This document shows positions 6,957-42,250 of a stretch of DNA of 42,926 bases, piece by piece. The stretch's first letter is position 1; each line of letters opens with the position of its first letter. Below the pieces are notes generated by a model. It searched no databases, was not told the origin of the DNA, and saw only the letters and a program-made list of their open reading frames with translations. The stretch is taken from the NCBI RefSeq assembly GCF_002162835.1, contig NZ_MAAX01000014.1, positions 1-42,926 of the forward strand, given 5' to 3'. The position numbers were made by a program, and so were the translations under genes. The DNA is from Nonlabens dokdonensis. GTDB taxonomy: Bacteria > Bacteroidota > Bacteroidia > Flavobacteriales > Flavobacteriaceae.

Positions 6957-7362
6957 ACAATCAGAATATAAATTTTCTGACTCTTCTGTTAGTTTGAATT
7001 TAAATTTGATTAATTCCGCTTTCGCGAAAGCGATATTCAAAACGTTTATAAGGCGATTATTAAGCCTATGGAGAAATTATAAGAAAATCGCAAACTTCCG
7101 AATAATTTATAATTCGACTAAAGATGATCTCTATTTTAACAGAACATATATCAACTCTAAGAGTGCTATTTTCAATATTTAAACTAAAGGTTCTACTAGC
7201 ATTTAAGACATAATCTTTGGTGGATTATAATTAATAAACTGAAAAGGCTTCACTGAATAAAGGAAGTTTTGATTGAAAGTAATGAGATTTGAAAATCATC
7301 TTATACTTTACAATTACATCAACACTGAATCAATTGTTGAGTACAGTATATTTTACACAAAT
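6957..7362. other. gene-free stretch
   Basis: About 400 nt lie between the sugar transporter and the nqr terminator. An open frame crossing it overlaps the transporter's 3' end, has no family likeness, and reads straight through the palindrome, so I do not call it a gene. Contents seen: a weak 6-bp stem right after the transporter stop (6961-6980, no T-tract), one perfect iterated palindrome at 7017-7032, and otherwise AT-rich sequence with no clear promoter. Confidence 0.5.
7017..7032. repeat. iterated palindrome CGCTTTCGCGAAAGCG, intergenic
   Basis: Perfect 16-bp copy, 60 bases after the sugar transporter stop codon, in DNA with no other feature. It has no loop and no T-tract, so it is not a terminator. 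Confidence 0.95.
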
Positions 7363-7396
7363 AAAAAAGCTCCATCTTAACAGTTGGAGCTTTTTT
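7363..7396. terminator. bidirectional intrinsic terminator closing the nqr operon
   Basis: A 12-bp stem (7363-7374 with 7385-7396), six GC-type and AT-type pairs plus six A-T pairs, encloses a 10-nt loop. An A-run on one side and a T-run on the other let it work in both directions. It lies 24 nt beyond the nqrF stop. Confidence 0.88.
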
Positions 7397-7420
7397 ATTT
7401 AAAATTAGAATTTGAAGAAA

Positions 7421-8722
7421 TCAACCTCCAAAATCATCAAAACGTATGTTTTCAGGATCTACACCAAAGTCTTCAGCCATTTTACCAACAGCGTTATTCA
7501 TTAACGGCGGACCACAGAAGTATACCTCAAGATCTTCAGGCGCGTCATGTTTTGTTAAATATTGGTCGATAACAACTTGGTGAATAAATCCTACAAATCC
7601 ATCACCAGACTCGTCGTTAATATCTTCTTTTACTTTCCAATTATCTTCTTCCATAGGCTCTGAAAGTGCCATAAAGAATTTGAAATTAGGAAATTCTCGT
7701 TCTAGTTCACGGAAGTGCTCGATATAGAACAACTCTCTTTTAGATCGACCACCGTACCAGTAAGTAACCTTACGATCTGTTTTCAAAGTCTTAAATAGCT
7801 CATATAAGTGAGAACGCATAGGTGCCATTCCTGCTCCACCACCTACATAAAGCATTTCTGCATCAGAGTGGTTAATAAAGAATTCACCATAAGGTCCAGA
7901 AACGACAACCTTGTCGCCTGGCTTCTGATTAAAGATATAAGAACTTGCGACACCAGGATTCACATCCATCCATCCATTCTTTGCTCTATCCCATGGCGGC
8001 GTAGCAATACGCACGTTTAACATGATCTCACGACCTTCAGCTGGGAAAGAGGCCATAGAATATGCTCTCTCTACTGTCTCCCCATTTTTCATCACAAGTG
8101 GCCATAAGTTGAACTTATCCCATTCTTCTTGGAATTTATCTGGAGTTTCATGTTCTTCTGGGTGAGCAGTGATATCCATATCTTCAAAACGAACTTCACA
8201 CTTAGGAATTTCAATTTGAATATAACCACCAGCTTCATAATGCATGTCTTCTGGAAGACGTACTACAAATTCTTTAATAAAAGAGGCTACGTTATAATTA
8301 CGCACTACTTCTGCTTCCCATTTTTTGATTCCAAATACCTCTTCAGGAATTTCGATTTTCATGTCTTGCTTTACCTTCACCTGGCAACCTAATCGCCATC
8401 CTTCGGCAATTTCTTTTCTAGTAAAATGAGGTTCTTCAGTAGGAAGAATTGTTCCTCCACCTTCAGCAACAATACATTTACATTGCACACAAGTTCCACC
8501 ACCACCACAAGCAGATGGTAAGAATAATTTGTTATCTCCTAGAGTACCCAGTAATGTACCACCAGATCCAGTTGTAATATCCTTTTCACCATTTACATTA
8601 ATTGTAACTGGTCCAGAAGGCAACAACTTAGACTTTGCTCCTAAAAGTAAGGAAACAAGAAGTAAAATAAGTGTAAGAAATATAACTACACTCGCTAATA
8701 TCGTAAATAAGTTAGAATCCAT
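7421..8722 (-). CDS. nqrF: Na+-translocating NADH:quinone reductase subunit F
   Basis: This is the NADH-oxidising subunit of Na+-NQR, 433 residues. Order of parts: one N-terminal membrane helix (about 5-28), a plant-type 2Fe-2S ferredoxin domain with Cys72, Cys78, Cys81 and Cys113 ([14 protein letters not shown] and LGCQV), an FAD-binding domain with RAYSMAS, and an NADH-binding domain with [13 protein letters not shown] and the FCGPPLMN ending. It passes electrons from NADH to the membrane subunits. It is the last gene of nqrABCDEF, 15 nt after nqrE, and is followed by a strong terminator. Confidence 0.97.
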
Positions 8723-8737
8723 ATTGATGTTTTCTTT

Positions 8738-9352
8738 TTAAATTTCTATTCCCATAAAACTCATGAAACCAAATGCCATAAGTCCAGTAATAATAAATGT
8801 AATTCCTAATCCACGTAATGGAGCAGGTACATTTGAATAAGTGATTTTTTCACGTATAGCAGCGATAGCAAGAATGGCTAGGAAGAAACCTATACCACTA
8901 CCTACACCATATACTGCAGACTCTCCTATACCAGAGAAATCTTTTTGTTGCATAAATAAAGATCCACCTAAAATGGCACAGTTTACAGCGATAAGTGGTA
9001 AGAATATACCCAAAGCTCCATATAAAGCCGGTGCAAATCTTTCAACAACCATTTCTACTAATTGTACCATACTTGCAATTACAGCAATGAACATGATAAA
9101 ACTTAAAAATGATAAATCAATGTTTGCATACTCTGCATCTAACCAAGTTAAAGCACCAGGCTTTAGTAAATACGTATCGAGTAACCAGTTAATAGGCACT
9201 GTAATTCCTAATACAAAAACCACAGCTGCACCTAAACCTACTGCTGTTTTAACAGATTTTGATACTGCTAGATAAGAACACATACCTAAGAAGTAGGCAA
9301 AAACCATGTTCTCTATGAAAATACTTTTAACGAAGAGATTAATTAAATCCAT
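8738..9352 (-). CDS. nqrE: Na+-translocating NADH:quinone reductase subunit E
   Basis: This 204-residue integral membrane subunit has six predicted helices. It shares the NqrD/NqrE fold, with the [15 protein letters not shown] segment near the N-terminus and [14 protein letters not shown] in the middle. The cysteines in these two half-repeats (Cys25-region and the VNCAIL cysteine) correspond to those that bind an iron centre between NqrD and NqrE. It is 17 nt after nqrD and 15 nt before nqrF. Length is close to the family norm. Confidence 0.96.
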
Positions 9353-9369
9353 GTTTTCTATTTCTTAGA

Positions 9370-10071
9370 TTAATTTTGTTCAATTAAAGTTCTGTTGCGG
9401 CTGCGCTGTATCCAAATAATGATACCAACTGTAATTAACGCCATAGGCGATAATAACATAAGACCATTATTTACATATCCTGCATCATAAAATGATTGAG
9501 GTATTACCTCCATACCAAGTAATTTACCTGCTCCTAATAATTCTCTAAAGAAAGCAACTAGAATTAAGATAAATGCATATCCTGCCGCATTACCTATACC
9601 ATCAAGAAATGATTTATACACACCATTTCCTAAAGCAAATGCCTCAAGACGTCCCATCACAATACAGTTAGTAATAATTAATCCTACAAAAACAGATAGT
9701 TCTTTAGAAACATCATAAGCGTAAGCTCTAAGAATTTGATCAACTAAAATTACTAACGCTGCTACAACCACTAATTGAACAATAATTCTAATCCTAGAAG
9801 GAATCAAATTACGCAACATTGAGATGATCATGTTAGAAAATGCCATTACCGCCATTACAGCTATGGACATTACGATAGCAGGTTTCAATTGCACTGTAAT
9901 TGCAAGTGCACTACAAATACCTAAAACTTGAACTGTAATTGGATTGTTGTCCGTAAAAGGATCAGCAAGTAGTTTTCTATTCTTCTTTCCTAAAAGACCT
10001 TCTCTCTCATCGGTGTCTGACAAGAAAAGAATCAAATCTTCTTTCTTATTAATATTTTTATTTTCAGCCAT
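9370..10071 (-). CDS. nqrD: Na+-translocating NADH:quinone reductase subunit D
   Basis: This 233-residue membrane subunit pairs with NqrE. The conserved part begins around residue 40 (DPFTDNNPITVQVLGICSALA) and includes the second iron-site cysteine in IITNCIVMGRLEAFA. The protein has roughly 25-30 more N-terminal residues than typical NqrD, and these are charged (MAENKNINKKEDLILFLSDT). No internal ATG, GTG or TTG offers a shorter start, so the extension appears genuine. The gap to nqrC is 40 nt, wider than elsewhere in the operon, and holds a copy of the iterated palindrome. Confidence 0.94.
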   Translation of the reverse strand: MAENKNINKKEDLILFLSDTDEREGLLGKKNRKLLADPFTDNNPITVQVLGICSALAITVQLKPAIVMSIAVMAVMAFSNMIISMLRNLIPSRIRIIVQLVVVAALVILVDQILRAYAYDVSKELSVFVGLIITNCIVMGRLEAFALGNGVYKSFLDGIGNAAGYAFILILVAFFRELLGAGKLLGMEVIPQSFYDAGYVNNGLMLLSPMALITVGIIIWIQRSRNRTLIEQN

Positions 10072-10088
10072 TACGGTTGGATTTATAT

Positions 10089-10104
10089 CGCTTTCGCGAA
10101 AGCG
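10089..10104. repeat. iterated palindrome, between nqrC and nqrD
   Basis: Perfect 16-bp copy in the 40-nt gap between nqrC and nqrD, inside an operon that must be read through. The other spacers of this operon are 2 to 17 nt, so the element accounts for most of the extra length. Confidence 0.95.
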
Positions 10105-10111
10105 GAACTAA

Positions 10112-10837
10112 TTAATTAGAAGCCACTTTTACGTTAGTATTATTTTTAAAATAAGGAAGGTAATTTATCAAACGCTCTGATATCATATCAGTAACTCCAT
10201 CACCAGTAATAGTAGCTCCAGAGATAGCATCTATTGCATTATCATCTTTGTTATCACCACCTTGATAACCTTTTGCTACAGATACTCCGATAAAATTACC
10301 AGCATCATCAAAGATTTTTTCGTCATCAAATCTCTTTCTGAACCAAGTTTGAGTAATTTCTGCACCTAAACCAGGAGTCTCTGCTTTATGATCAAACACA
10401 GCTCCTTTGATGGTATTCACATCATCTTTTAAAGCTATATAACCCCAAATTGCATCCCATAAACCTTTACCTCTCAAAGGAACGATATAGTACTTTGCTC
10501 CTTCAATATCAGCAACGTAAAGAGGAAAAGCTTGTTCTTCTACATCTTTCTTAAGTTCTTTTTTAAGATCAACGGTAAAAGCATCTACATCATTACGTTC
10601 TTGTCCTTTACTGTCTAGTGCTATACGCTCAACTATATATTTGTCAAACGGGATTTGAGCACTATCTCTTGCCACCTCGATACCTACGGTACCAAGAATG
10701 TTTTGCATCTTTTCATTCTTAACATTTTCTGCCTGCTCTGGCTGTAAAGCTGTCGCAGTTAACGCAAGAGCACTTGCCACTACTGCAATAAGTAGTACGA
10801 CAAATAAAAATGTATAAGCATTTGAATTTCTATCCAT
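10112..10837 (-). CDS. nqrC: Na+-translocating NADH:quinone reductase subunit C
   Basis: This 241-residue subunit has one N-terminal membrane helix (about 8-30) and a large domain on the far side of the membrane. The FMN attachment motif DAISGAT is present, so Thr209 should carry phosphoester-linked FMN put on by the ApbE transferase. It starts 2 nt after nqrB ends and is followed by a palindrome-bearing gap before nqrD. Upstream of the FMN site, the family motif ETPGLGAEI is also present. Confidence 0.96.
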   Translation of the reverse strand: MDRNSNAYTFLFVVLLIAVVASALALTATALQPEQAENVKNEKMQNILGTVGIEVARDSAQIPFDKYIVERIALDSKGQERNDVDAFTVDLKKELKKDVEEQAFPLYVADIEGAKYYIVPLRGKGLWDAIWGYIALKDDVNTIKGAVFDHKAETPGLGAEITQTWFRKRFDDEKIFDDAGNFIGVSVAKGYQGGDNKDDNAIDAISGATITGDGVTDMISERLINYLPYFKNNTNVKVASN

Positions 10838-10839
10838 TT

Positions 10840-12015: not shown

Positions 12016-12018
12016 AGT

Positions 12019-13362: not shown

Positions 13363-13395
13363 AGGATGTTATATTTAGTCTTTTATAAAAGTCTG

Positions 13396-13403
13396 CAAAT
13401 TTA
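13396..13403 (-). promoter_or_regulatory. -7 promoter element of the nqr operon
   Basis: The minus strand reads TAAATTTG followed by C, a full match to TAnnTTTG, 33 nt upstream of the nqrA ATG. No clear TTG was found at the -33 distance. Inference from consensus. Confidence 0.5.
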
Positions 13404-13480
13404 CGATATAATGATCTGAAATGTAACTTAAATAATTATTTAGACTCTCTCTAAATAGATCTTTTAATTAGTTTTGGCAC

Positions 13481-13496
13481 CGCTTTCGCGAAAGCG
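13481..13496. repeat. iterated palindrome, between divergent nqrA and the T9SS plug gene
   Basis: Perfect 16-bp copy in the divergent intergenic region, 50 nt before the ATG of the plug-domain gene. An in-frame upstream ATG would make a protein start reading L-S-R-K-R through this copy; that start is rejected because the signal peptide begins at 13546. Confidence 0.95.
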
Positions 13497-13545
13497 TAAT
13501 TATCAACTAACTTTAAGTTATATTTATCCTTTATTGCAATCCTAT

Positions 13546-17546: not shown

Positions 17547-17562
17547 CGCTTTCGCGAAAGCG
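17547..17562. repeat. iterated palindrome, between apaG and pruA
   Basis: Perfect 16-bp copy, 12 nt after the apaG stop codon and 111 nt before the pruA start. Confidence 0.95.
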
Positions 17563-19358: not shown

Positions 19359-20000
19359 TTATAACGGTAAGTGTACTACCTTTTTGGTTTCAAAGAACGG
19401 ATCTTCAAAAACATCTTGCAGTTCATAAATAGTTGCCTTCGGAAAAGCTGCTAGTTCCTCAGTAAGATCGCCACCCTTAAGATAAAGAATTCCGTTTTTT
19501 AAAGTGTGAAAACTATCTTTCCTCACTTTATTCTTTACCCATCGTACAAAATCAGGCATATTAGTCACTGCTCGAGAGACTACAAAATCAAAGCGTCCTT
19601 TTACTTTTTCTGCACGACCATGCTCTGTAGTAACGTTTTCAAGACCCAATGCTTCTACAACGGCGTCTACAACTTTTATCTTTTTACCTATCGCATCGAT
19701 CAAGTGAAAACTTGTTTTAGGAAACATGATCGCAAGAGGTATTCCTGGAAAACCGCCACCAGTTCCTACGTCTAGCACTCTAGTCCCGCCACTTTTATTA
19801 GGTGCGCTTTCGCGAAAGCGTAATACAGTAACAATACCTAATGAATGTAAAATGTGTCTTGTATATAATTGATCGATATCTTTTCTAGAGATCACATTAA
19901 TTTGAGCATTCCATTCTTTGTACAAATCACCTAGTTTAGAAAATTGCTCTAATTGATGATCTGTGATATGCGGAAAATGTTCTTTTATGATTTGATGCAC
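19359..20000 (-). CDS. rsmG: 16S rRNA (guanine-N7)-methyltransferase RsmG
   Basis: This 213-residue SAM-dependent methyltransferase modifies G527 of 16S rRNA (E. coli numbering). The SAM motif RVLDVGTGGGFPGIPLAI and the later VSRAV segment are clear. Between the HSLGIV helix and the SAM motif there are about eight more residues than in E. coli RsmG. The R-F-R-E-S part of that stretch is written by a perfect copy of the 16-bp palindrome (19805-19820). The gene is divergent from an aminotransferase, with its own -7 element upstream. Confidence 0.95.
   Translation of the reverse strand: MHQIIKEHFPHITDHQLEQFSKLGDLYKEWNAQINVISRKDIDQLYTRHILHSLGIVTVLRFRESAPNKSGGTRVLDVGTGGGFPGIPLAIMFPKTSFHLIDAIGKKIKVVDAVVEALGLENVTTEHGRAEKVKGRFDFVVSRAVTNMPDFVRWVKNKVRKDSFHTLKNGILYLKGGDLTEELAAFPKATIYELQDVFEDPFFETKKVVHLPL
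19805..19820. repeat. iterated palindrome, inside rsmG
   Basis: Perfect 16-bp copy within a coding region. It is read on the minus strand as R-F-R-E-S in a loop that appears longer than in other RsmG proteins, just before the SAM-binding motif. Confidence 0.95.
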
Positions 20001-24352: not shown

Positions 24353-24368
24353 CGCTTTCGCGAAAGCG
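24353..24368. repeat. iterated palindrome, between divergent trkA and ubiE
   Basis: Perfect 16-bp copy between two divergent promoters. It ends 28 nt before the ubiE -7 element. Confidence 0.95.
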
Positions 24369-26613: not shown

Positions 26614-29166
26614 ATGGAAAAAACAGGACTTCATGCAAAAATAGGATTAATTATCTTGCTTATAATTCTATTAGTTTCTTGCAGTGCTATCAAGCGAGTG
26701 CCTGATGGTAAAAAACTTTTAACTAAAAATACTATTCTTGTCGATAGTGCCGCTCCTATAGATCCTAGAGTGCAAACTTTACCTACTCTTCAACCTAATC
26801 AGAAGCTTCTCAACATACCATTAAGACTTCATATTTACAACCTCGCTAGACCTAATCGTGATTCTATTTATTTAAAATGGATGCAAGAAAATCCAGAAGG
26901 TCTAAAAAGAAGAAACGCTATACTTTCTGAAAAACAGACTATAGCTTTCGGGCAGGGATTAGTTAACTTTAATAAATGGCTCAAGAGAACCGGAGAACCA
27001 CCTAGTCTAATTGATAAGGTGGCAATTGACAAATCAAAAGAAAAACTTAGAGCTTGGTACTGGAATCAAGGATGGTTCAACACAAAAGTAGATCACAATA
27101 TTATAGACAGTGATAGACCTAAAAGAGCTAAAGTTGAATACCTAGTAGATCGCGGGCAGCCCTATAAAATAGATAGTATTTCAACTCAAATAGCGACACC
27201 TGTAATAGATTCCTTGTATCAATTAGTCAAGTCAGAAAGTATTTTAAAAAAAGGAGAGCAATATTTTACTCCAGATATCAATGCAGAGAGAGACCGTTTA
27301 AATTCTCATTTCAGAAATCACGGAGCTTTCTATATGGAAAAAGACAATATTAGATTTGAAGGTGATACGGTAAACACAAATCAAAAAGCAAATATTACTT
27401 TAATTATTAAAGACCGAGAGTTCAAAATTGCAGACTCCACTTATAGCATCCCTTATAAAATTCATAAAATAAGTGAAGTTAATATTATTCCAGATTATCA
27501 AAATGCAAGTAGCACTCAAAGACCAGACACGCTCAAATATGAGGATTATAATATCCTAAGATTTGGTAAACGCAAATACAAAAGAGCCTCGCTTACTGAT
27601 GCCATTTTCTTCCATAAAGGAGATATTTACAGAGATATAGATAGGGATAGAACCTATCGCAGAATTACAGAATTACAAAGTTTTCTCTATCCTACTATTA
27701 ACTATGTGGTAGATCCTAGAGATACTACAGGTACAAATCTTATTGCCAATGTATTACTTACTTCAAAGAAAAAATTTGAATTCACTTATGGAGTAGAGAC
27801 CACTCATAGTAATATTCAAGCAATAGGTGTAGGTTTAAATACGTCTTTATTAATAAGAAACTTATTTAGAGGTAGCGAGCTGCTCGACATATCCTTTAGA
27901 GGAAATATAGGAGCTAGCACTAATGCAGCAAATGGAGACACTAGGTTCTTTGATCTTCAAGAACTAGGAGCAGATGCTCGATTGAGTTTTCCAAGGTTAT
28001 TCTTACCATTTGATGTAGATAATTTAATCCCCAAATACATGTCTCCTTCTACTAACTTCTCAGTAGGTTACTTTAGTCAGACTAATATAGGACTGGATAA
28101 ACAGAGTTTAAATGGAGCATTAACCTATAACTGGAGACAGACTGCGATTAAAAGCACTCGTGTAGACTTAGTTAACGCTCAGTACGTACGCAACCTAGAT
28201 CCCGGAAACTTTTTCAATGTTTACCAAAGTAGTTATAGTAGTGTAAACGATGTAGCGAGAGATTTAAATATTAATAACCCTACCTATGTAAATGAGGATG
28301 GCAACTTAAGCATCCCGACAGGAACAAACACCTTTATTAATGATGCTATTGCAGGCAATCTAGGAGCTACACCAGATCAACGGGAGACCTTAAGAAACGT
28401 GCGCGAACGACGCGACAGACTTTCACAAAACAATCTTATCATTTCATCAAGCTATAACTGGACACGTAATAATCGAGAAGGAATTTATGATGATGATTTT
28501 TCTAGATTTAATTTCAGAATAGAGTCTGCAGGAAATGTGCTTTCAGGAATATCCAGCTTAGTAGGGATCGATAAAAATAGTAATAACAGGCGTCGTGTTT
28601 TTGGAGTAGAATATAGTCAGTATATAAAAACTGAAATCGACTACATAAAACACTGGCAGTATGTAAATAATCATGTGTTTGCTATAAGAGCATTTGGTGG
28701 CATTGCAATTCCCTATGGAAACTCAGATAACATACCGTTCATTAGATCATTCTTTGCTGGTGGCCCTAACGACAACCGCGCCTGGCAGGCTTATGAATTA
28801 GGACCAGGAAAAACAGGTGGTTTAAATGATTTTAATGAAGCAAATATGAAACTAGCTTTTAATGCAGAGTATAGATTCCCTATATCTGGTGCATTTAAAG
28901 GAGCTGTATTTGCAGACGTAGGTAATATTTACAATGTACTTGACAGCGAGGATGATCCCGACGCAATTTTTGATGGAATAGAAGATCTGGAATTTCTTGC
29001 TTTAGGAACAGGTGCTGGATTGAGGTACGACTTTGGATTCTTTGTTTTAAGATTTGATATGGGATTTAAAACCTATAATCCCGCCTTAGAAGAAGGTAGA
29101 AGATGGTTTAAAGAATTTAAAATCTCTAGATCTGTTCTTAATGTAGGTATTAATTATCCTTTTTAA
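26614..29166 (+). CDS. tamL: TamL-like BamA/TamA-family outer-membrane lipoprotein
   Basis: This 850-residue Omp85-superfamily protein starts with a lipoprotein signal (LLIILLVSC), the feature that distinguishes Bacteroidota TamL from TamA. The start at 26614 is preferred because it places the signal at the N-terminus and follows a -7 element. The N-terminal half contains POTRA-like repeats (e.g. YKIDSISTQI, YKIHKISEVNI). The C-terminal 400 residues form the barrel, with the conserved IPFIRSFFAGGPNDNRAW loop and a terminal Phe (NVGINYPF). It should act with a TamB-like partner in envelope assembly; none is adjacent. Confidence 0.88.
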   Translation: MEKTGLHAKIGLIILLIILLVSCSAIKRVPDGKKLLTKNTILVDSAAPIDPRVQTLPTLQPNQKLLNIPLRLHIYNLARPNRDSIYLKWMQENPEGLKRRNAILSEKQTIAFGQGLVNFNKWLKRTGEPPSLIDKVAIDKSKEKLRAWYWNQGWFNTKVDHNIIDSDRPKRAKVEYLVDRGQPYKIDSISTQIATPVIDSLYQLVKSESILKKGEQYFTPDINAERDRLNSHFRNHGAFYMEKDNIRFEGDTVNTNQKANITLIIKDREFKIADSTYSIPYKIHKISEVNIIPDYQNASSTQRPDTLKYEDYNILRFGKRKYKRASLTDAIFFHKGDIYRDIDRDRTYRRITELQSFLYPTINYVVDPRDTTGTNLIANVLLTSKKKFEFTYGVETTHSNIQAIGVGLNTSLLIRNLFRGSELLDISFRGNIGASTNAANGDTRFFDLQELGADARLSFPRLFLPFDVDNLIPKYMSPSTNFSVGYFSQTNIGLDKQSLNGALTYNWRQTAIKSTRVDLVNAQYVRNLDPGNFFNVYQSSYSSVNDVARDLNINNPTYVNEDGNLSIPTGTNTFINDAIAGNLGATPDQRETLRNVRERRDRLSQNNLIISSSYNWTRNNREGIYDDDFSRFNFRIESAGNVLSGISSLVGIDKNSNNRRRVFGVEYSQYIKTEIDYIKHWQYVNNHVFAIRAFGGIAIPYGNSDNIPFIRSFFAGGPNDNRAWQAYELGPGKTGGLNDFNEANMKLAFNAEYRFPISGAFKGAVFADVGNIYNVLDSEDDPDAIFDGIEDLEFLALGTGAGLRYDFGFFVLRFDMGFKTYNPALEEGRRWFKEFKISRSVLNVGINYPF

Positions 29167-29223: not shown

Positions 29224-30291
29224 ATGAGTCACAATATAAAACCAGGAGTTGCTACCGGCGACCAAGTTCAAGAGATTTTCAATCATGCCAAAGCTAATGG
29301 CTATGCGTTACCAGCGGTAAACGTTGTTGGTTCTAACACTGTAAACGCGGTAATGGAAACAGCTGCAGAGTTAAATTCTCCAGTGATTATTCAATATTCT
29401 AACGGAGGATCTGTTTTTAACGCAGGAAAAGGATTGAGTAATGATAATCAACGAGCGGCGATCTTAGGTGGTATTGCAGGTGCTGAGCATGTTCATAGGT
29501 TAGCCGAAGCTTATGGAGCAAGTGTTATCCTACATACTGACCACTGTGCCAAAAAATTACTTCCTTGGATTGATGGTTTATTAGATGCTAGTGAAGCACG
29601 CTTTCGCGAAAGCGGTAAAAGTTTATATTCTTCTCACATGATCGATCTTAGTGAGGAGCCGTTAGAAGAGAATATTGAAATTTGTAAAAGATACCTAGAA
29701 AGAATGTCCAAAATGGATATGACTCTAGAAATTGAATTAGGAATAACTGGTGGAGAAGAAGATGGTGTTGACAATAGTGATGTAGATGAGTCTAAGTTGT
29801 ACACGCAACCAGAAGAAGTAGCGTATGCTTATGAAGAGCTTAAAAAAGTTAGTGATAAGTTTACTATCGCTGCAGCCTTTGGTAACGTACATGGTGTTTA
29901 TAAACCAGGTAACGTAAAACTTACTCCTAAAATTTTAAAGAATTCTCAAGAGTATATTTCAAAAAAATATAACGTAGAGCACAACCACATAGATTTTGTA
30001 TTTCACGGTGGTTCAGGATCTACTCTAGAAGAAATTAGAGAGGCTATAGGTTATGGAGTAGTAAAAATGAATATCGATACTGATCTTCAATGGGCTTTTG
30101 CAAATGGTATCAAGACCTATATGGATGACAATAATGACTTTTTATTATCACAAATAGGAAATCCTACAGGAGCAGACTCACCTAATAAAAAATACTACGA
30201 TCCTCGTAAATGGTTGCGTGTAGGAGAAGAGTCTTTTAAAGCAAGATTAAAACAAGCTTTTGAAGATTTAAACAACATCAATACTTTATAA
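29224..30291 (+). CDS. fbaA: class II fructose-bisphosphate aldolase
   Basis: This 355-residue zinc aldolase interconverts fructose 1,6-bisphosphate with glyceraldehyde 3-phosphate and dihydroxyacetone phosphate. Zinc and active-site motifs are ILHTDHCAKK, EIELGITGGEEDGVDNS, FGNVHGVYKPG and FHGGSGS. The start at 29224 (MSHNIKPGVATGDQV) matches the family; the frame's earlier ATG overlaps the promoter. Residues R-F-R-E-S, in the loop before GKSLYSSHMIDLSEE, come from a perfect palindrome copy (29599-29614). Compared with E. coli FbaA this replaces residues without changing length. Confidence 0.96.
   Translation: MSHNIKPGVATGDQVQEIFNHAKANGYALPAVNVVGSNTVNAVMETAAELNSPVIIQYSNGGSVFNAGKGLSNDNQRAAILGGIAGAEHVHRLAEAYGASVILHTDHCAKKLLPWIDGLLDASEARFRESGKSLYSSHMIDLSEEPLEENIEICKRYLERMSKMDMTLEIELGITGGEEDGVDNSDVDESKLYTQPEEVAYAYEELKKVSDKFTIAAAFGNVHGVYKPGNVKLTPKILKNSQEYISKKYNVEHNHIDFVFHGGSGSTLEEIREAIGYGVVKMNIDTDLQWAFANGIKTYMDDNNDFLLSQIGNPTGADSPNKKYYDPRKWLRVGEESFKARLKQAFEDLNNINTL
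29599..29614. repeat. iterated palindrome, inside fbaA
   Basis: Perfect 16-bp copy read as R-F-R-E-S in the aldolase. It aligns without a gap to a variable segment of E. coli FbaA. Confidence 0.95.
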
Positions 30292-31846: not shown

Positions 31847-32830
31847 ATGAAAAATTCAAAACTATTTGACGTAATTATTATAGGTGCTGGACCTATAGGT
31901 ATCAATTGTGCACTACAAGCAAAGAAGAACGGTCTTTCATATTTAGTGATAGAAAAAGGTCCTTTGGTAAACTCTCTTTACAATTATCCTGCAAACATGC
32001 AATTTTTCTCTACTAGTGAAAAATTAGAATTAGATAGTATTCCTTTTATATCTAAAGAAGCAAAACCCAGCAAACAAGAAGCTTTAGAATACTACCGCAG
32101 GATCGCTACCTCAAATAGTCTACAAATTAACCTTTTTGAAAAGGTCATAGCTATTGATAAGTTGAAAAACTTTAAGATCCAAACTGATAAAAATCAGTAC
32201 CACTCTAAGAATATTATTATTGCTACAGGCTTTTATGATATCCCTAATAAAATGAACATCAAGGGAGAAAGCTTGAATAAGGTAACACACTATTATGATG
32301 ATCCTCATCTTTATGCATTTCAAAATGTAGCTGTTATAGGAGCAAGTAATAGTGCCGTAGATGCAGCTTTAGAAATTTATCGCAAAGGTGGTAATGTAAC
32401 TATGATCATAAGAGGATCATCTATAGGAGAACGAGTAAAATACTGGGTAAAACCAGATATAGAAAACCGCATTAAAGAAGGCTCCATAAAAGCTTGCTTC
32501 AATAGTGAAATAAAAGAAATCTTAGAGGAGCATATCATCATAAAGACTTCAAATAAAGTACAGAAAATACCAAATGACTTTGTAGTTGCACTGACTGGCT
32601 ATCAACCTAATTTCACTTTTTTAGAGAAAATAGGCATAAAATTAGAAGGTGATAAAAGAATTCCAAGTTATAATTCTGAAACGATGGAAACTAATGTTGA
32701 TGGCGTCTTTCTAGCAGGTGTGATATGCGGTGGACAAGAAACTCATAAATGGTTTATTGAAAATAGTCGCGTGCATGCTAGTCAAGCTATAGAAACTATA
32801 GTTGAGAGATCTAAAAAGACAGCTTTTTAA
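31847..32830 (+). CDS. ypdA: YpdA-family putative bacillithiol disulfide reductase
   Basis: This 327-residue flavoprotein resembles thioredoxin reductase but lacks its CxxC. It has an N-terminal FAD site (VIIIGAGPIGINCALQAKK), a central NADPH site (VAVIGASNSAVDAALEI) and the YpdA-typical NMQFFSTSEKLELD and C-terminal GGQETHKWFIENSR. In Firmicutes YpdA (Bdr) reduces bacillithiol disulfide with NADPH, and many Bacteroidota also make bacillithiol. No bacillithiol synthesis gene is in the window. It converges on the DUF1801 gene with three bases between the stops. Confidence 0.88.
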   Translation: MKNSKLFDVIIIGAGPIGINCALQAKKNGLSYLVIEKGPLVNSLYNYPANMQFFSTSEKLELDSIPFISKEAKPSKQEALEYYRRIATSNSLQINLFEKVIAIDKLKNFKIQTDKNQYHSKNIIIATGFYDIPNKMNIKGESLNKVTHYYDDPHLYAFQNVAVIGASNSAVDAALEIYRKGGNVTMIIRGSSIGERVKYWVKPDIENRIKEGSIKACFNSEIKEILEEHIIIKTSNKVQKIPNDFVVALTGYQPNFTFLEKIGIKLEGDKRIPSYNSETMETNVDGVFLAGVICGGQETHKWFIENSRVHASQAIETIVERSKKTAF

Positions 32831-33302: not shown

Positions 33303-33318
33303 CGCTTTCGCGAAAGCG
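33303..33318. repeat. iterated palindrome, upstream of the DUF1801 gene
   Basis: Perfect 16-bp copy in the 85-nt gap between two minus-strand genes, 11 nt past the membrane ferredoxin stop and 58 nt before the DUF1801 start. Confidence 0.95.
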
Positions 33319-34958: not shown

Positions 34959-34988
34959 AAAGCTTGTTGTTCTTAAGGTTGTAAATGA

Positions 34989-36329: not shown

Positions 36330-36707
36330 GGAGTTAAGATTAATGAATTATCTATTGACAAATGAACTGATTTTTGACTCAAAAGCAAAGGTGAATACAT
36401 CATCTATTCCTATACATTATTCCCTTAGGTTATCTTATTTCTCAAACCAGCTACCACAAGTATAAACATAATGGTTCACATTATAAGCAGTAAGGAGTTG
36501 ATATGTGTTCCGCTTTCGCGAAAGCGAGTACTATAAAAACACCTCTATACTGAAACAAACTGGCAAGACAATTGCTCGTTATATACCAAACCGTTAAAAC
36601 AAACATCAAATTGAGCAAATTTGATTAGTTTTATGAATCAGATAAGTTGACCTCCATGTTTCTTAAAAATAGCTGATTTGCAATTCAATTCTTCTACCCA
36701 TAAATCA
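36330..36707. other. gene-free divergent intergenic region
   Basis: About 380 nt lie between the divergent FAD oxidoreductase and GH113-like genes. I see one perfect iterated palindrome (36511-36526) and otherwise AT-rich sequence. No full TAnnTTTG element, hairpin with T-tract or RNA gene was recognised. Promoters for both genes must be here. Confidence 0.5.
36511..36526. repeat. iterated palindrome, divergent intergenic region
   Basis: Perfect 16-bp copy, about midway between two divergent genes (182 nt and 181 nt from the two start codons). Confidence 0.95.
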
Positions 36708-37751
36708 ATGAATAAAATCCTTTTTCTACTACTTGCAATGATCTTGACTTCTTGCAACTCGCAAAATAAAGAAGTTGCTAAAAATCAAAAGATAGAAGCT
36801 GTTCCTAATCTATCAAAAATCAAAGGCATCACTCTTGTAGCAACAAGAGACTCTATTGATTACAATGCTATTTCTCCTATTAAAAAATACAACGCAAATT
36901 ATGCCGCCATAATTCCTTATGCATGGATGAGAAGCCTAGAAGAACCTCAAGTAAATTATGAAGAAAAAAGAGGCTGGTGGGGCGAGAAGCCACATGGTGT
37001 TGCAGTAACAAGTCAATTGATGAAAGCGCAAAAAATAAATGTGCTTCTTAAACCACAAATATGGATAGGTCGTGGTGCCTATACAGGGAATATTAAATTG
37101 AACGATGAAGCCGCTTGGAAAACTCTAGAAGATAGCTACACTGATTATATCATGAGATTTGCTCATATCGCCGCTCAAGAAAATATAAGTATCTTTTGTA
37201 TAGGTACAGAATTAGATTCCTTTGTAAAATCTAGACCAGAGTATTGGTCTAAACTAATTCAAGAAATTCGTAAAATTTACAAAGGTAAATTAACCTATGC
37301 GGGAAACTGGAATAGTTATAAATATGTATCCTTTTGGGATGAGTTGGATTATATAGGAGTAGATGCTTATTTCCCAGTAAGTGAAGAAAAAACACCAACT
37401 ATAGCGACTATTAAAGCCTCTTGGAAAAAATGGAAGTTAGAATTAAGCACGCTTTCGCGAAAGCTGAACAAACAAATTCTATTTACAGAATACGGTTATA
37501 TAAGCGCAGATTTTGCTGGTCTTGAACCTTGGAAAAACGCAGGTGAAGATCGAGCCATAAATGAGGAAGCACAAAGTATTTTGTTTCAAGGACTCTATGA
37601 TGCTGTGTGGAATGAAAAATGGATGGCAGGCGGCTTTATCTGGAAACACCATGCAGAAAAAAGCAGACGTCGTGGCTACGAAAAGCGGTTCACTCCACAA
37701 GGTAAAAAAGCACAGCAAACGGTTACTAAAGCATATCTTAAATCAAGTTAG
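36708..37751 (+). CDS. GH113-like glycoside hydrolase lipoprotein
   Basis: This 347-residue lipoprotein (lipobox ILTSC) has a TIM-barrel hydrolase resembling family GH113 (beta-mannanase-like). Candidate acid/base is Glu168 in IGTELDSF and candidate nucleophile Glu261 in LFTEYGY. Supporting segments are INVLLKPQIWIGRGAYTG, LDYIGVDAYFP and a C-terminal GGFIWKHH. The start at 36708 puts the signal peptide at the N-terminus; an upstream ATG adds ten polar residues. A 15-of-16 palindrome copy writes L-S-R-K-L just before the nucleophile strand. An M1 peptidase follows 42 nt later. The substrate is not established. Confidence 0.72.
   Translation: MNKILFLLLAMILTSCNSQNKEVAKNQKIEAVPNLSKIKGITLVATRDSIDYNAISPIKKYNANYAAIIPYAWMRSLEEPQVNYEEKRGWWGEKPHGVAVTSQLMKAQKINVLLKPQIWIGRGAYTGNIKLNDEAAWKTLEDSYTDYIMRFAHIAAQENISIFCIGTELDSFVKSRPEYWSKLIQEIRKIYKGKLTYAGNWNSYKYVSFWDELDYIGVDAYFPVSEEKTPTIATIKASWKKWKLELSTLSRKLNKQILFTEYGYISADFAGLEPWKNAGEDRAINEEAQSILFQGLYDAVWNEKWMAGGFIWKHHAEKSRRRGYEKRFTPQGKKAQQTVTKAYLKSS
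37450..37465. repeat. iterated palindrome, 15 of 16 bases, inside the GH113-like gene
   Basis: CGCTTTCGCGAAAGCT differs from the consensus at the last base only. It is read as L-S-R-K-L on a surface segment ahead of the strand that carries the presumed nucleophile. Confidence 0.85.
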
Positions 37752-37793
37752 TGGCAATAGACTTCTCCTACCACCAATAAATAAAATTAAAAA

Positions 37794-39458
37794 ATGAAGA
37801 AATTCCATATTTTCCTTTTCATATTAACTGTTTTCACATCCATTCAGTTTACCGAAGCTCAACTCCTACAGAATAAACAAGAATTTACTAGACAAGATTC
37901 TCTAAGAGGTTCCATCACTCCAGAACGTGTCTGGTGGAATCTAATACGCTATGATCTTGATGTTATGGTAGAGCCAGAAAAGAAATTTATTTCAGGCTCT
38001 AATACGGTAACTTATGAGGTGCTGGAATCGCAGCAAGTTATGCAAATCGATCTTCAAGAACCTATGAAGATCAATAAAGTATTAGCTGATAACAAAGAGC
38101 TATCGGTGACTAGAGAAGGAAATGCTCACTTTATAACTCTAGAAAAAAAACAAAAGCCAGGCGCAAAAAACAGCATCCAGATATTTTTTGAGGGAAATCC
38201 ACGACAGGCAAAAAATGCACCATGGGACGGCGGTTTTTCTTGGAAGAAAGATAGCAATGGCAAACATTTTATAGCTACTTCTAATCAAGGTTTAGGTGCT
38301 AGCGTATGGTGGCCTTGTAAGGATCATATGTACGACGAGCCAGAAACTGGAATGACCATCGCTATAACTATACCGCAAGGATTAACCGCAGTTGCAAATG
38401 GTCGTTTAACAGATGAATCTTCTAAAGACGACGGAACCAAAACTTTTGTATGGCTGGTAGAAAACCCTATAAACAACTATGGTGTAAATATCAACATAGG
38501 TGATTATGCAAATTTCTCTGAGGTTTATGAAGGAGAAAATGGACCTCTAGATATGAATTACTATGTTCTTAAAGACAACCTAGAAAAAGCCAAGGTACAC
38601 TTCAAAGATGCACCTAAAATGATGAAGGCTTTTGAGCACTGGTTCGGTCCATATCCTTTTTATGAAGATAGTTTTAAACTAGTAGAAGTTCCTTATTTAG
38701 GAATGGAGCACCAAAGCTCAGTTACTTATGGTAACAAATATGTAAAAGGCTATTTAGGCAATGATCTTTCTGGTAGCGGTTGGGGTTTAAAATTTGATTT
38801 TATCATCATTCATGAAGCAGGACACGAGTGGTTTGCTAACAATATTACTAATAAAGATATTGCTGACATGTGGATCCATGAAAGCTTCACAGCCTATTCT
38901 GAAAGTTTATTTTTAGACTATTATTACGGTAAAGAAGCTAGTTCTGCATATGTTATTGGGACACGTCGCAGTATTAGAAATGACCGACCTCTTATAGGAC
39001 AGTACGATGTAAATCACGAAGGTTCCGGCGACATGTATTACAAAGGCGCAAATCTTTTACACACCTTAAGAAAAATCACGAATGACGATGAGAAATGGAG
39101 AGAGATTTTGCGTGGTCTTAATTCAGAGTTTTATCACCAAACAGTCACTACTGCACAAATAGAAAATTATATTGCTGATAAAATGGGACTTGATCTTCAA
39201 CCGGTTTTTGATCAATACCTAAGAGATGTGCGAATTCCAGTTTTAGAGTATGCCTTAATTAAAAATAAAATGCAGTACAGATGGTCTAATGTGGTAGATA
39301 ATTTTGAGATGCCAATTCAAATCCTGATCGATGGAGAAAAAAAATGGATCACACCTACCACTACAATTCAAAAGCTGAAGTTACCTTCTAAGGAATCAGA
39401 ATTTGATATTATTGAAGATTTTTATGTGGAGTATGATAGGCAGAACAAATTAGATTAA
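37794..39458 (+). CDS. M1-family zinc metallopeptidase, secreted
   Basis: This 554-residue aminopeptidase-N-like protein has a Sec signal peptide (MKKFHIFLFILTVFTSIQFTEAQ). The zinc site is His340, His344 and Glu363 (HEAGHEWF and IHESF), with Glu341 catalytic. The substrate motif, GMEHQSSVTYG in place of GAMEN, is typical of bacterial M1 relatives acting outside the cytoplasm. It lacks the long C-terminal helical domain of E. coli PepN. The 3' end overlaps the convergent epimerase gene by 9 nt. Confidence 0.9.
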   Translation: MKKFHIFLFILTVFTSIQFTEAQLLQNKQEFTRQDSLRGSITPERVWWNLIRYDLDVMVEPEKKFISGSNTVTYEVLESQQVMQIDLQEPMKINKVLADNKELSVTREGNAHFITLEKKQKPGAKNSIQIFFEGNPRQAKNAPWDGGFSWKKDSNGKHFIATSNQGLGASVWWPCKDHMYDEPETGMTIAITIPQGLTAVANGRLTDESSKDDGTKTFVWLVENPINNYGVNINIGDYANFSEVYEGENGPLDMNYYVLKDNLEKAKVHFKDAPKMMKAFEHWFGPYPFYEDSFKLVEVPYLGMEHQSSVTYGNKYVKGYLGNDLSGSGWGLKFDFIIIHEAGHEWFANNITNKDIADMWIHESFTAYSESLFLDYYYGKEASSAYVIGTRRSIRNDRPLIGQYDVNHEGSGDMYYKGANLLHTLRKITNDDEKWREILRGLNSEFYHQTVTTAQIENYIADKMGLDLQPVFDQYLRDVRIPVLEYALIKNKMQYRWSNVVDNFEMPIQILIDGEKKWITPTTTIQKLKLPSKESEFDIIEDFYVEYDRQNKLD

Positions 39459-40340
39459 CTCCTTCATACATTCCTCAACCGTTTTATATTCAAACTCAAA
39501 ACCAGCATCCAGCAATCGCTGCGGATACACATACCTGCTTTTTAGCAGCAATTCGGTTTCTGTTTTTATGATGGCACTAGCCAATTCAAGTAACCAGACT
39601 GGTTGCGAAATACCTATAGGAACACTTAATTGTTTCCGCAAATCACGCATAAAATCTTTGTTGGTTTTAGGATTTGGCGCTGTGATATTTACAGATCCAG
39701 ATAATTTAGAGTTAATCAAAAAATCTATGGCTTTACAAAAATCATGAATATGGAGCCAGCTTATAAATTGGTCGCCACGACCTTGCTTGCCGCCCATTCC
39801 TAATCTTGTGATGGTTTTTAATTTTGGAAAAGCGCCACCATTTTTACCTAGAACAATAGAAGTACGCAGTGCAATTTTACGCACATCTGGTATTTCAGTT
39901 GCGTAAAATTCTTTCTCCCATGATTTGGCAATATTCATAGAAAAATCATCTCCTATCACGCCAGTTTCTTCTGTATTTATAGTCGTTTCAGCATGTACAT
40001 AAATAGTTGCTGTACTAGCATTAAGAAATACTTTTGGCTTTTGATTAGCTTGTTCCATGGCACGATTCAATACGCGTGTACTGTCAATACGTGAGTTTAA
40101 AATCGCTGCTTTATTCTCACCGGTATAACGACAGTCTACTGATTTTCCCGCTAGATTGATTAACACCTCAGCATCTTCTAGATGCTTAGTCCATTCTCCA
40201 AGATCTTTACCGTTCCAGTAAGTGGTGTCTTTGTTCCGCTTTCGCGAAAGCGAGATCACAACAAACCCTTTTGCCTCAAAATAACCTTTAAGAGCATTTC
40301 CTAAAAAGCCGGTTCCACCAGCGATAACGATCTTTTTCAT
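39450..40340 (-). CDS. TIGR01777-family NAD(P)-dependent epimerase (DUF1731)
   Basis: This 296-residue SDR-type protein starts at 40340 (MKKIVIAGGTGFLGNALKGYF). A longer frame would overlap the upstream gene by 55 nt, whereas this start gives a 4-nt ATGA overlap. Motifs: GGTGFLG for NAD(P), VLINLAGKSVDCRYT, FLNASTATIYVH, and the C-terminal DUF1731 part (LSVPIGISQPVWLLEL). No substrate is known for the family. A perfect palindrome copy encodes L-S-R-K-R just after the first beta-strand pair. It is the last gene of the GbsR-regulated cluster. Confidence 0.9.
   Translation of the reverse strand: MKKIVIAGGTGFLGNALKGYFEAKGFVVISLSRKRNKDTTYWNGKDLGEWTKHLEDAEVLINLAGKSVDCRYTGENKAAILNSRIDSTRVLNRAMEQANQKPKVFLNASTATIYVHAETTINTEETGVIGDDFSMNIAKSWEKEFYATEIPDVRKIALRTSIVLGKNGGAFPKLKTITRLGMGGKQGRGDQFISWLHIHDFCKAIDFLINSKLSGSVNITAPNPKTNKDFMRDLRKQLSVPIGISQPVWLLELASAIIKTETELLLKSRYVYPQRLLDAGFEFEYKTVEECMKELI
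40237..40252. repeat. iterated palindrome, inside the epimerase gene
   Basis: Perfect 16-bp copy read as L-S-R-K-R near residue 30, where related epimerases also have a basic loop following VxxLxR. Confidence 0.95.
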
Positions 40341-41164
40341 GAGAATGTGATTATGATGATACCTAAAACAACGGTGCGAAAAGATAACCAAGACACTGTA
40401 GGCAGATAACCGAGATTCATATTACCGCAGCGGCGTAAATGTTCTAATAACATGATTCCCACCACAACCATAAAGTAGACTAGAAACACGATTCCGGAAA
40501 AGTCAAAAAACGAATTCAAAAATAGTAAAGGCAATAATATAATTCCTCCAAGAGTGGAAACGGCACTCATGTTTCCTAGATAATCCCAACTGTTTTTACG
40601 AGACCAAAGTAAAATCATTGTTCCTTGCCAGACTACCTGACCAAAACAGATTATATATTCTACAAACCATGGTGTTGTAAAACCAAAATAGCTGGTGATG
40701 TGACTTGTGTAAGAGTTGAGCACCAAACCTGTAAACAAAGCCGTAAACACGATAAATAACGTGCGATAAAAGTAGTTGAAATCTGGCTCGCAAACTCTAT
40801 CTTCTGCTGGGCTAGGTGCGTTTCCTGCAATGACTTTTCTATTATAGGTAATGAATTTATAGAGTTGTTTTAAAGGAAGATAAATCAGCGGAAACTGCAA
40901 CGGCTTTTTGATCCAGTTTTTGCCTTGAGCAAATATTTCTATCATAGAATCCAGACCGTACATTGTTTTTCCAGTAACGGTATCGTGAAGAGCAACCTCG
41001 TTTTGCGCACGATGCATATCGATCGTACAAGTCAGCTCCTCGCCTACTATTTGGTATGGAGTTATAGATTCTTTATCTAACATGTTGAACTTCTTAAATG
41101 TCTTGCCATAAATGTTGCACATGGGGCAATTCTGGTCGATGAGTAATTTGTGGTTTGCGATCAT
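40337..41164 (-). CDS. DCC-domain (DUF393) membrane protein
   Basis: This 275-residue protein has an N-terminal thioredoxin-like DCC domain (about 1-115) with a CPMC motif at residues 13-16 (LIDQNCPMCNIY). About five membrane helices follow (from about residue 133, YFYRTLFIVFTALFTGLVL, onward). The DCC domain is proposed to do thiol-disulfide chemistry; the fused membrane part has no known role. Its stop overlaps the epimerase start by 4 nt, so both are translated together. Confidence 0.82.
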   Translation of the reverse strand: MIANHKLLIDQNCPMCNIYGKTFKKFNMLDKESITPYQIVGEELTCTIDMHRAQNEVALHDTVTGKTMYGLDSMIEIFAQGKNWIKKPLQFPLIYLPLKQLYKFITYNRKVIAGNAPSPAEDRVCEPDFNYFYRTLFIVFTALFTGLVLNSYTSHITSYFGFTTPWFVEYIICFGQVVWQGTMILLWSRKNSWDYLGNMSAVSTLGGIILLPLLFLNSFFDFSGIVFLVYFMVVVGIMLLEHLRRCGNMNLGYLPTVSWLSFRTVVLGIIIITFS

Positions 41165-41232
41165 GGTATTAGAATTTAATTAATTAGGACAAGAAACGTT
41201 AGCTGTTCATGTGGCTTATACTTGGGATATTC

Positions 41233-41568
41233 TTAAGTATTAATTGGTGGCTTACATCTATAGGTGCTGTAAATGGAAAAGAAAAATAGAATGATTGCCA
41301 TCAATAAGCCTATCACAAAGAGTCCTGTTTTTAAATGAATGCCAATTGTAAAAATGAGACAACACGCTACGATAGATCCAATGAAATGTATAATGCTTAA
41401 CTGTTTGATTTCTTTCTTGTAATTATTATTAAAAATCATAACTAGGCTCATTCCTACTTGAATAAATCCATGAATTACAAAACCTAAAAAACTGTATACA
41501 GGATCAATAATTATTGTAAGTACCCAAATCAATAGAAGCAACACATTAAGGTTAAATAGGTTTTTCAT
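41233..41568 (-). CDS. small four-helix membrane protein, unknown
   Basis: This 111-residue hydrophobic protein has four predicted membrane helices (about 5-22, 26-46, 57-76 and 80-100) and a short cysteine-containing tail (YRCKPPINT). I recognise no family. It lies 56 nt after the GbsR-type regulator, with a copy of that regulator's presumed operator 17 nt before its ATG. It is therefore likely a direct regulatory target. The DCC gene follows 68 nt downstream. Confidence 0.65.
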   Translation of the reverse strand: MKNLFNLNVLLLLIWVLTIIIDPVYSFLGFVIHGFIQVGMSLVMIFNNNYKKEIKQLSIIHFIGSIVACCLIFTIGIHLKTGLFVIGLLMAIILFFFSIYSTYRCKPPINT

Positions 41569-41585
41569 AATTTATATTTTTAGAA

Positions 41586-41605
41586 CTTTCAATAAAAACT
41601 GAAAG
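41586..41605. promoter_or_regulatory. operator 2 of the GbsR-type regulator
   Basis: CTTTCAATAAAAACTGAAAG is an imperfect palindrome sharing its outer arms (CTTTCA...TGAAAG) with operator 1 at 42159-42178; 16 of 20 positions are identical. It lies 17 nt upstream of the small membrane protein start. Confidence 0.7.
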
Positions 41606-41617
41606 TTTAATTCAAAT

Positions 41618-41653
41618 AAAAAAGCTATGAGATCGCTTTGATCAGCTTTTTCA
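41618..41653 (-). terminator. weak terminator-like hairpin overlapping the regulator's stop codon
   Basis: On the minus strand AAAAAGCT pairs with AGCTTTTTT around a loop of about 17 nt that contains the last codons and stop of the regulator. The stem is mostly A-T, so termination would be partial at best. Confidence 0.35.
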
Positions 41654-42131
41654 TATAATTGTTACTATTTATTTTAGTCATTAAGTTGGTTAAGTTTTCC
41701 ATCTGACTTACAAAGTCTGATAGGTCAGAAAGTAAGGTTTGAAAATGTTCTATTTCTTCTTTGTTTCCTTCAAATTTAGCAGCTTTTAATTCATTAAGTA
41801 AACGTCTTACTGGCTCCAGCTCTCTTCTTTTACGCTCTTCCATAATGTTTTGAGCAATAGAATGTACATCATGAAGTGCTATAAAAAACTCTTTGCGTTC
41901 GCCTAGAACGGTTTCCTTTCTTACCAGCCTCCAGTTGATCAACTCACGTACGTTGGTATTTACATTACCTCTAGAAAGTTGTACTTCTTTCATGATCTCG
42001 TCCGTACTTAATCCATCAGGATGAGAAAGCAGCAGTGCATGGATTTGCGCCATGGACTTAGATATTCCCCAAGAGCTCCCTAAAGAACCCCAAGCCTGAA
42101 TAAATTTTGATCTACCTTCTTCTAATTTCAT
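41625..42131 (-). CDS. GbsR/MarR-type transcriptional regulator
   Basis: This 168-residue DNA-binding protein has a winged helix-turn-helix (residues about 25-85: SMAQIHALLLSHPDGLSTDE, then SRGNVNTNVRELINWRLVRK) and a C-terminal helical dimerisation part (about 95-168). It matches the GbsR group, whose Bacillus member responds to choline. Two copies of a 20-bp palindrome flank the gene. One overlaps the presumed -33 element of its own promoter, which fits autorepression. The ligand is unknown. Confidence 0.85.
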   Translation of the reverse strand: MKLEEGRSKFIQAWGSLGSSWGISKSMAQIHALLLSHPDGLSTDEIMKEVQLSRGNVNTNVRELINWRLVRKETVLGERKEFFIALHDVHSIAQNIMEERKRRELEPVRRLLNELKAAKFEGNKEEIEHFQTLLSDLSDFVSQMENLTNLMTKINSNNYMKKLIKAIS

Positions 42132-42135
42132 ACGT

Positions 42136-42165
42136 CAAATATACAACTACTTTTTAACCTTTCAA
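42136..42165 (-). promoter_or_regulatory. promoter of the GbsR-type regulator, near leaderless
   Basis: On the minus strand, TTG at 42165-42163 and TATATTTG at 42143-42136 are 19 nt apart, matching the Bacteroidota -33/-7 pattern. The -7 ends four bases before the ATG. The TTG lies inside operator 1. Confidence 0.6.
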
Positions 42166-42178
42166 TAATTATTGAAAG
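42159..42178. promoter_or_regulatory. operator 1 of the GbsR-type regulator
   Basis: CTTTCAATAATTATTGAAAG is a perfect 20-bp palindrome, 27 nt upstream of the regulator start and covering its presumed -33 element. A related element lies before the downstream membrane gene. Confidence 0.78.
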
Positions 42179-42234
42179 TTTTGTACTAATTATGATCAAT
42201 TTTCATGTAAGAGCTTAAAGTTTATATTTAATTC

Positions 42235-42250
42235 CGCTTTCGCGAAAGCG
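42235..42250. repeat. iterated palindrome, divergent intergenic region
   Basis: Perfect 16-bp copy, here extended to a 22-bp palindrome by flanking TTC and GAA. It lies 28 nt before the HD phosphohydrolase start. Confidence 0.95.

Follow-up and report, generated by a model that had tools for sequence, protein, structure and literature searches.

A highly iterated palindrome of Nonlabens and Dokdonia as the possible core of a genome-wide mark on own DNA

Why should the same 16-bp perfect palindrome recur eleven times in a single stretch of 42,926 nucleotides from the genome of Nonlabens dokdonensis (contig NZ_MAAX01000014.1 of RefSeq assembly GCF_002162835.1, positions 1 to 42,926; hereafter, the window)? 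This 16-mer was found to be the core of a symmetric element of approximately 76 bp that is iterated throughout the genome. It is tentatively read here, with less than even confidence, as the core of a genome-wide self-recognition mark working like the DNA-uptake sequences of Haemophilus and Neisseria. The claim is that it works like an uptake sequence and not that it is one, as two defining features of such sequences were tested for and were not found.

An initial annotation, made from the letters of the window, had reported eleven perfect copies, and each of these was confirmed at its coordinates. Its near copies at 893 and 37450 were also correctly placed, while a third, given as 3390, begins one base earlier. 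Dinucleotide shuffles of the window gave 0.01 matches at two mismatches or fewer, in keeping with its view that a chance origin was implausible. The window was aligned to the syntenic stretch of eight relatives (64–94% identity per piece), with 56 of 88 site comparisons alignable. Gene names in the window are a reading of the translations by eye, with only NqrA backed by a search. The features are as follows, with no strand assigned to any of them:

7017..7032, perfect palindrome, intergenic, flanked by convergent genes
10089..10104, perfect palindrome, between two open frames of the nqr cluster that lie 40 bp apart; of eight syntenic relatives, seven perfect, one with two mismatches
13481..13496, perfect palindrome, divergent intergenic; of eight relatives, four perfect, three with one mismatch, one absent
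17547..17562, perfect palindrome, co-directional intergenic; of eight relatives, six perfect, two absent
19805..19820, perfect palindrome, within an rsmG-like gene (by eye), frame RFRES; of eight relatives, one perfect, seven with one mismatch
24353..24368, perfect palindrome, divergent intergenic; of seven alignable relatives, four perfect, two split by an insert of ~43 bp (G005 and G010), one absent
29599..29614, perfect palindrome, within the class II fructose-bisphosphate aldolase gene fba (by eye); arisen by substitution, as judged against other genera
33303..33318, perfect palindrome, co-directional intergenic; of four alignable relatives, three perfect, one absent
36511..36526, perfect palindrome, divergent intergenic; of three alignable relatives, one perfect, two absent
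40237..40252, perfect palindrome, within an epimerase/SDR-like gene (by eye), frame LSRKR; perfect in the sole alignable relative
42235..42250, perfect palindrome, upstream of a regulator-like gene (by eye)
37450..37465, near copy with one mismatch, at the outermost base
3389..3404, near copy with two mismatches, probably a decayed site to judge by its perfect counterparts at the equivalent place in G007, G013 and G010
893..908, near copy with two mismatches, within a kynureninase-like gene (by eye)
10059..10134, example of the full element: ~30-bp flank, 16-bp core and ~30-bp flank, the flank bias being an average over many sites

The extrapolation of the initial annotation to many hundreds of sites per chromosome was borne out by 602 perfect copies in the 3,038,145 bases (214 contigs) of the organism's own genome. 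Neither of the outcomes it had named as speaking against such a family was found: the 602 copies stand against 0 for a reversed control and so are not near expectation, and they are not confined to this region, occurring genome-wide in this and other Nonlabens and spreading round the chromosome of G014 (82 copies, with 19 of 20 evenly spread 20-kb stretches positive). On the related chromosome of G004, 63 perfect copies were counted in 300 kb; palindromes with permuted half-sites (40 random draws) gave 0 matches at zero to one mismatch in the same 300 kb and 0.075 per palindrome at two.

All 22 other Nonlabens species sampled are rich in the palindrome, with 180–737 copies each, and outside Nonlabens one of 36 genomes had any match (four copies). 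Among 378 genomes drawn from the Flavobacteriaceae, 46 showed matches, the rich ones being Nonlabens, G250 (probably Dokdonia; 630 copies) and G234 (153 copies), while the others had 0–13. A scan of named genomes agreed, Nonlabens and Dokdonia dominating among the matches listed and single copies appearing in unrelated organisms. Strong over-representation is thus limited to three of the genera sampled, the pattern looked for in a DNA uptake sequence (DUS) or uptake signal sequence (USS). No iterated palindrome of their own was seen in 10 other genera (40 kb each). The literature was queried with the sequence letters: the 16-mer and its 14-mer gave no match, those of a 10-mer were apparently unrelated, and the repeat itself was absent from the keyword matches listed. 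The literature drawn on consists of parts of PMC1939737, PMC2397512, PMC8459023, PMC7965970 and PMC4390886.

The initial annotation had rightly recognised a genome-wide iterated palindrome; the element of ~76 bp, the even spacing of its copies, their kept positions and a copy made by substitution had gone unseen. The compositional bias of the flanks reaches ~30 bp on each side and not beyond, the left flank being poor in C and the right flank, by symmetry, poor in G, as averaged over 373 distinct sites that include foreign single-hit records among L016–L119. Preferred bases of the right flank are A at +2, A or C at +3, T at +4, A or C at +5, A at +6, +9 and +12, and C at +14 and +15; a rhythm of ~6 bp is weak and is not claimed. 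This bias is found at coding and intergenic sites alike. The arms are complementary above expectation for their first three to four positions only, and the flanks are therefore not a stem. A hairpin of the whole element, in RNA or DNA, was rejected on the same short complementarity and on folding no better than that of shuffles in three of four stretches (the fourth with a z of −2.2).

Nonlabens copies with one or two mismatches have 55 of their 94 mismatched positions at the outermost base and one of the 94 at positions 4–5 from the end. In Dokdonia, T or TA often stands next to the site, by symmetry. In G022 (L361–L370) near copies that differ in the outer base only number 32, against 11 perfect copies, and the 14-mer is the common form, which from its letters is a dialect. 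A directional half-site, with the flank following the intact arm, was tried and rejected, the difference disappearing once copies with repeat inserts were removed (C 0.129 vs G 0.100, P 0.23, 21 half-sites). Other short repeats, for example CCTGCCTGCCGGCAGGCAGG or CCCGATAGCTATCGGG, interrupt some of the palindromes (orthologues of window site 24353 in G005 and G010; Dokdonia and Nonlabens loci), and judging by these cases such repeats seem to land inside palindrome sites.

Placement was surveyed over 13 stretches, coding and intergenic calls being made with our own simple gene caller, which is crude. The statement of the initial annotation that eight of 11 perfect copies are intergenic held for the window, where three sites are coding (19805, 29599 and 40237), and did not hold elsewhere, with 77 of 166 sites in genes over the 13 stretches (38 of 63 in G004, 8 of 23 in G250). 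Intergenic DNA is several-fold enriched in sites although so many are coding. The 89 intergenic sites comprise 56 in co-directional, 21 in divergent and 12 in convergent gaps, while these gaps make up 66, 21 and 13% of intergenic DNA (hand-summed), and no orientation preference was detected among them. Two further remarks of the annotation, that the sites share no gene type and lack a terminator tract, agree with this survey. An intrinsic terminator or promoter was rejected given the 77 sites in genes, the proportion of sites in convergent gaps, which matches the share of these gaps in intergenic DNA, and folding close to that of shuffles in three of the four stretches. The 77 coding sites occupy all three frames, read as AFAKA (45), RFRES (17) and LSRKR (15).

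Copies avoid lying close together. Gaps shorter than 1 kb account for two of 124 pooled over seven stretches, compared with a null mean of 22.9 and a lowest value of 10 in 1,000 simulations. Evenness was significant singly in seven of eight regions, G017 being the exception. With a coefficient of variation (CV) of the gaps of 0.65 in G004 and 0.59 in G250, the spacing is even and not regular.

Positions are mostly kept between species. Counted by hand, the 11 perfect window sites gave, in the 56 comparisons that could be aligned, 33 perfect matches, 13 with one or two mismatches, two split by an insert and eight absent; where flanks have diverged, a conserved match means the same gap and not the same base. 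At the fba site, a stretch of equal length was found in 21 genomes of other genera that were read, G250 and G234 included (a 22nd was unreadable), so that this site arose by substitution. To judge by this comparison, seen for that gene only, fba would be a permissive place. DNA that is not shared with other syntenic stretches holds three sites in 43.9 kb, compared with 64 in 345.8 kb of shared DNA (P 0.039). In G005, near copies were common, with 12 damaged in the core and 10 in the outer bases only, against 22 perfect (L351–L360, L190–L192). The corresponding counts of core-damaged, outer-only and perfect copies are 4, 10 and 63 in G004 and 13, 16 and 90 in G014. The contrast is blurred by G250, with 9, 4 and 23, and by G022, with 7, 32 and 11, mainly through its outer-base dialect. 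The sites of G005 look decayed from these counts, and G005 is possibly a lineage that lost the reader of the mark.

If the palindrome works like an uptake sequence, a two-fold receptor of a pilus-free transformation machinery would bind the mark on free DNA and would prefer DNA of the same clade. The machinery would be as in Riemerella, with a surface DUF5689 protein and its outer-membrane partner, ComEC and DprA, and repeated import and recombination of marked alleles would spread, space and preserve the sites. For the Flavobacteriales (Riemerella), the part of the literature drawn on describes transformation without pili that involves a surface DUF5689 protein, and also the preference of one such transformer for its own DNA. 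A ComEC family match without stops was found in 23 of 23 Nonlabens (a 467-aa frame in the fragmentary G012) and DUF5689 in 22 of 23, and a long open frame lies directly upstream of the DUF5689 gene in 27 of the 29 loci read, the exceptions being a contig end and a fused frame. Uptake by a type IV pilus was rejected, the T2SSE ATPase being over the cut-off in two of 12 Nonlabens only and in neither G250 nor G234. The two matches to this ATPase of type II secretion or type IV pilus type lie at G004:C4:336408-337520 and G007:C8:126205-127296. No reader protein was found among the candidates tried.

The element shares with DUS and USS its hundreds of clade-specific copies, even spacing and conserved positions, and also the presence of many copies in genes while intergenic DNA is enriched; a lower number in lineage-specific DNA is a less clear likeness. 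It differs in being palindromic and longer, in its symmetric 30-bp flanks, in the lack of a type IV pilus ATPase over the cut-off in 10 of 12 Nonlabens and in being present in some phage-like contigs. In the part of PMC1939737 drawn on, 65% of the uptake sequences of H. influenzae and 35% of those of N. gonorrhoeae lie in reading frames, and non-coding DNA holds more than its share. Those of Neisseria are described, in a portion of PMC2397512, as highly conserved, sited where core DNA is permissive and missing from genes of recent acquisition. A more specific proposal is made slightly more tentatively, namely that the palindromic core with its symmetric biased flanks would be a DNA self-recognition (uptake) signal, the first in the Bacteroidota, read by a two-fold receptor of a pilus-independent transformation machine and driven to approximately one copy every 5 kb in Nonlabens and Dokdonia; among the literature matches listed, no uptake signal was reported for Bacteroidota.

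Several points weigh against the uptake reading. The DUF5689 gene is found just as often beyond the rich genera (in 19 of 20 genomes). G005 keeps ComEC and DUF5689, both open, despite its decayed-looking sites, and loss of these competence genes was therefore rejected as the explanation of the decay. The symmetry of the palindrome, with its symmetric flanks, suggests more naturally a dimeric intracellular protein, and natural transformation in Nonlabens and Dokdonia is itself putative. Copies with one mismatch number 68 against 258 perfect ones, fewer than a tolerant receptor predicts. Sequence identity near sites was raised in three of seven genome pairs (G000 with G002, G007 and G010), all of which use the same G000 stretch; it was not raised in the other four, and in G010–G013 and G005–G010 it was lower. 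Known uptake sequences are non-palindromic, and are not spaced evenly enough for a role in compaction, according to the portion of PMC1939737 used. For Neisseria, the extract of PMC2397512 gives regions near uptake sequences as slightly less conserved.

Phage DNA adds to these points. Viral contigs carried the palindrome in 41 stretches on 30 contigs, and 17 of these 30 have a GC content of 0.46 or less and a sum of left-flank C and right-flank G of 0.12 or less, as in genuine elements. One phage contig with sites has portal, head and tape-measure genes and another an integrase and a tail gene. Phage-like contigs that carry the palindrome with biased flanks include the following:

L150, 1-14185
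L137, 1-13414
L125, 1-14038

The 17 contigs look like phages or prophages of this clade, and phages of the clade can thus carry sites. In the isolated pair of related Nonlabens phages, P12024S had none at up to three mismatches and P12024L none for the perfect 16-mer; zero sites in an isolated phage has a P of 0.0009 for one phage at host density. The phage-like contigs led us to lower our confidence in the uptake reading and in its being a first for the Bacteroidota, and to raise that in a role in chromosome architecture.

This last explanation is almost as likely as the uptake reading and proposes that a clade-specific dimeric DNA-binding protein, of nucleoid, topoisomerase or loop-anchor type and not a second ParB, binds the palindrome with ~30 bp on each side. 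Selection for chromosome shape would maintain a site approximately every 5 kb, also in resident prophages. The perfect two-fold symmetry, which extends to the flanks, the even spacing, the occurrence of sites round the G014 chromosome, the mostly conserved positions, the lack of a gap-orientation preference and the sites on integrase-bearing phage-like contigs all fit with this explanation. The spacing, though even, is not regular (the CV of G004), no trend was visible by eye along the G014 chromosome, no candidate protein was found for such a role, and 20 of 23 Nonlabens have a single ParB-type protein, which is also the number in other genera. A clade-specific extra ParB or Noc was rejected on this distribution of ParB_N matches, with four further matches, all of them proteins of 602–616 aa, in the remaining three genomes. 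One protein of this kind, a ParB-domain protein of 616 aa in G033 (G033:C18:76088-76363), lies close to the first palindrome of a cluster of four, the only copies in that genome; proteins like it (602–616 aa) occur in three Nonlabens genomes. The consensus of parS and Noc sites is a palindrome with TTTC...GAAA arms, and the element resembles it in length and in these arms; it differs in its ~600 sites, in an arm spacing that is off by 2 bp and in the lack of a clade-wide ParB/Noc paralogue. Both the uptake tag and the architectural site were rightly named by the initial annotation, and both fit the observations. The uptake reading is placed slightly ahead because biased import would be expected to produce sites that arise at the expense of an encoded protein, persist in shared DNA and are sparser in new DNA.

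Well behind these, and improbable, is a recombination hotspot mark of Chi type, read in double-strand-break repair and palindromic so as to work from both sides. Chi sites are short and oriented, whereas the Nonlabens element is long and symmetric, and its symmetric 30-bp flanks and even spacing would be left unexplained. The raised identity near sites in three of the seven genome pairs is in its favour, as are the lack of a gene preference and a density near that of E. coli Chi (at least 1008 in about 4.64 Mb, as given in the part of PMC1939737 drawn on).

A motif like the highly iterated palindrome HIP1 (GCGATCGC) of cyanobacteria, whose role is disputed, would arise from a methyltransferase and repair bias and is less probable again. 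Like the Nonlabens 16-mer, HIP1 is palindromic and iterated, and in the part of PMC4390886 used it goes with methyltransferases, which it tracks. HIP1 is an octamer, whereas the Nonlabens core is 16–22 bp with flanks; the constrained sequence (14–22 bp plus flanks) far exceeds a methyltransferase site and a methylation-driven origin is therefore unlikely, as judged on length. All 73 copies of TTTCGCGAAA in G004 fall within the 14-mer, and the even spacing also stands against this origin.

A self-propagating repeat spread by a transposase, like repetitive extragenic palindromic (REP) sequences or miniature inverted-repeat transposable elements (MITE), which the initial annotation had counted among its options, has equally little probability and is already largely refuted: its high copy number, palindromic form, interspersion and the occasional presence of other short palindromic repeats inside a site are matched against mostly kept positions, even spacing, an fba site formed at unchanged length (one gene only) and the lack of a match to the Y1/RAYT (REP-associated tyrosine transposase) family in the site-rich G004, G019, G022 and G234. 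REP sequences and bacterial interspersed mosaic elements (BIME) form several hundred interspersed palindromic units, which is the likeness; in contrast to REP/BIME with RAYT, the palindrome also lies inside genes, one copy was built by substitution and no Y1 transposase is needed.

Copies also occur outside the clade. In the seven other genera where sporadic ones were read with their surroundings, several copies share inter-copy distances and near identical flanks, as if DNA had left the clade and taken its sites along. The palindrome is thus usable as a tracer of such export. A heavy-metal efflux island of another genus (by eye; L201 1-20000, also L202–L208), identified in the one such stretch whose frames were read, has four copies. 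Other repeats were encountered in passing. Some 20–24 copies of AAGCTACACGATCCAGCAG-like units lie within 1-300000 of G004:C4, perhaps a repetitive protein gene, and at least two further families of short interspersed repeats (G000:C19 at ~28198-28230 and 31880-31946; L411) have many copies in several Nonlabens.

Hundreds of evenly spread, position-kept copies in the marine Nonlabens and Dokdonia look like a recognition mark on their own DNA. Few bacterial groups are known to have marks this dense, and where such marks are understood they have revealed a major process, be it DNA uptake, recombination control or chromosome layout. With a mark that is long, symmetric and easy to synthesise, a single bait can serve to fish out its reader, and G005, with its decayed-looking sites, is a natural comparison. 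A chromosome-organising site would represent a new system of that kind. An uptake signal, if true, would give a handle on the unsolved pilus-free passage of DNA across the outer membrane of Flavobacteriales and a practical means of transforming these marine bacteria.

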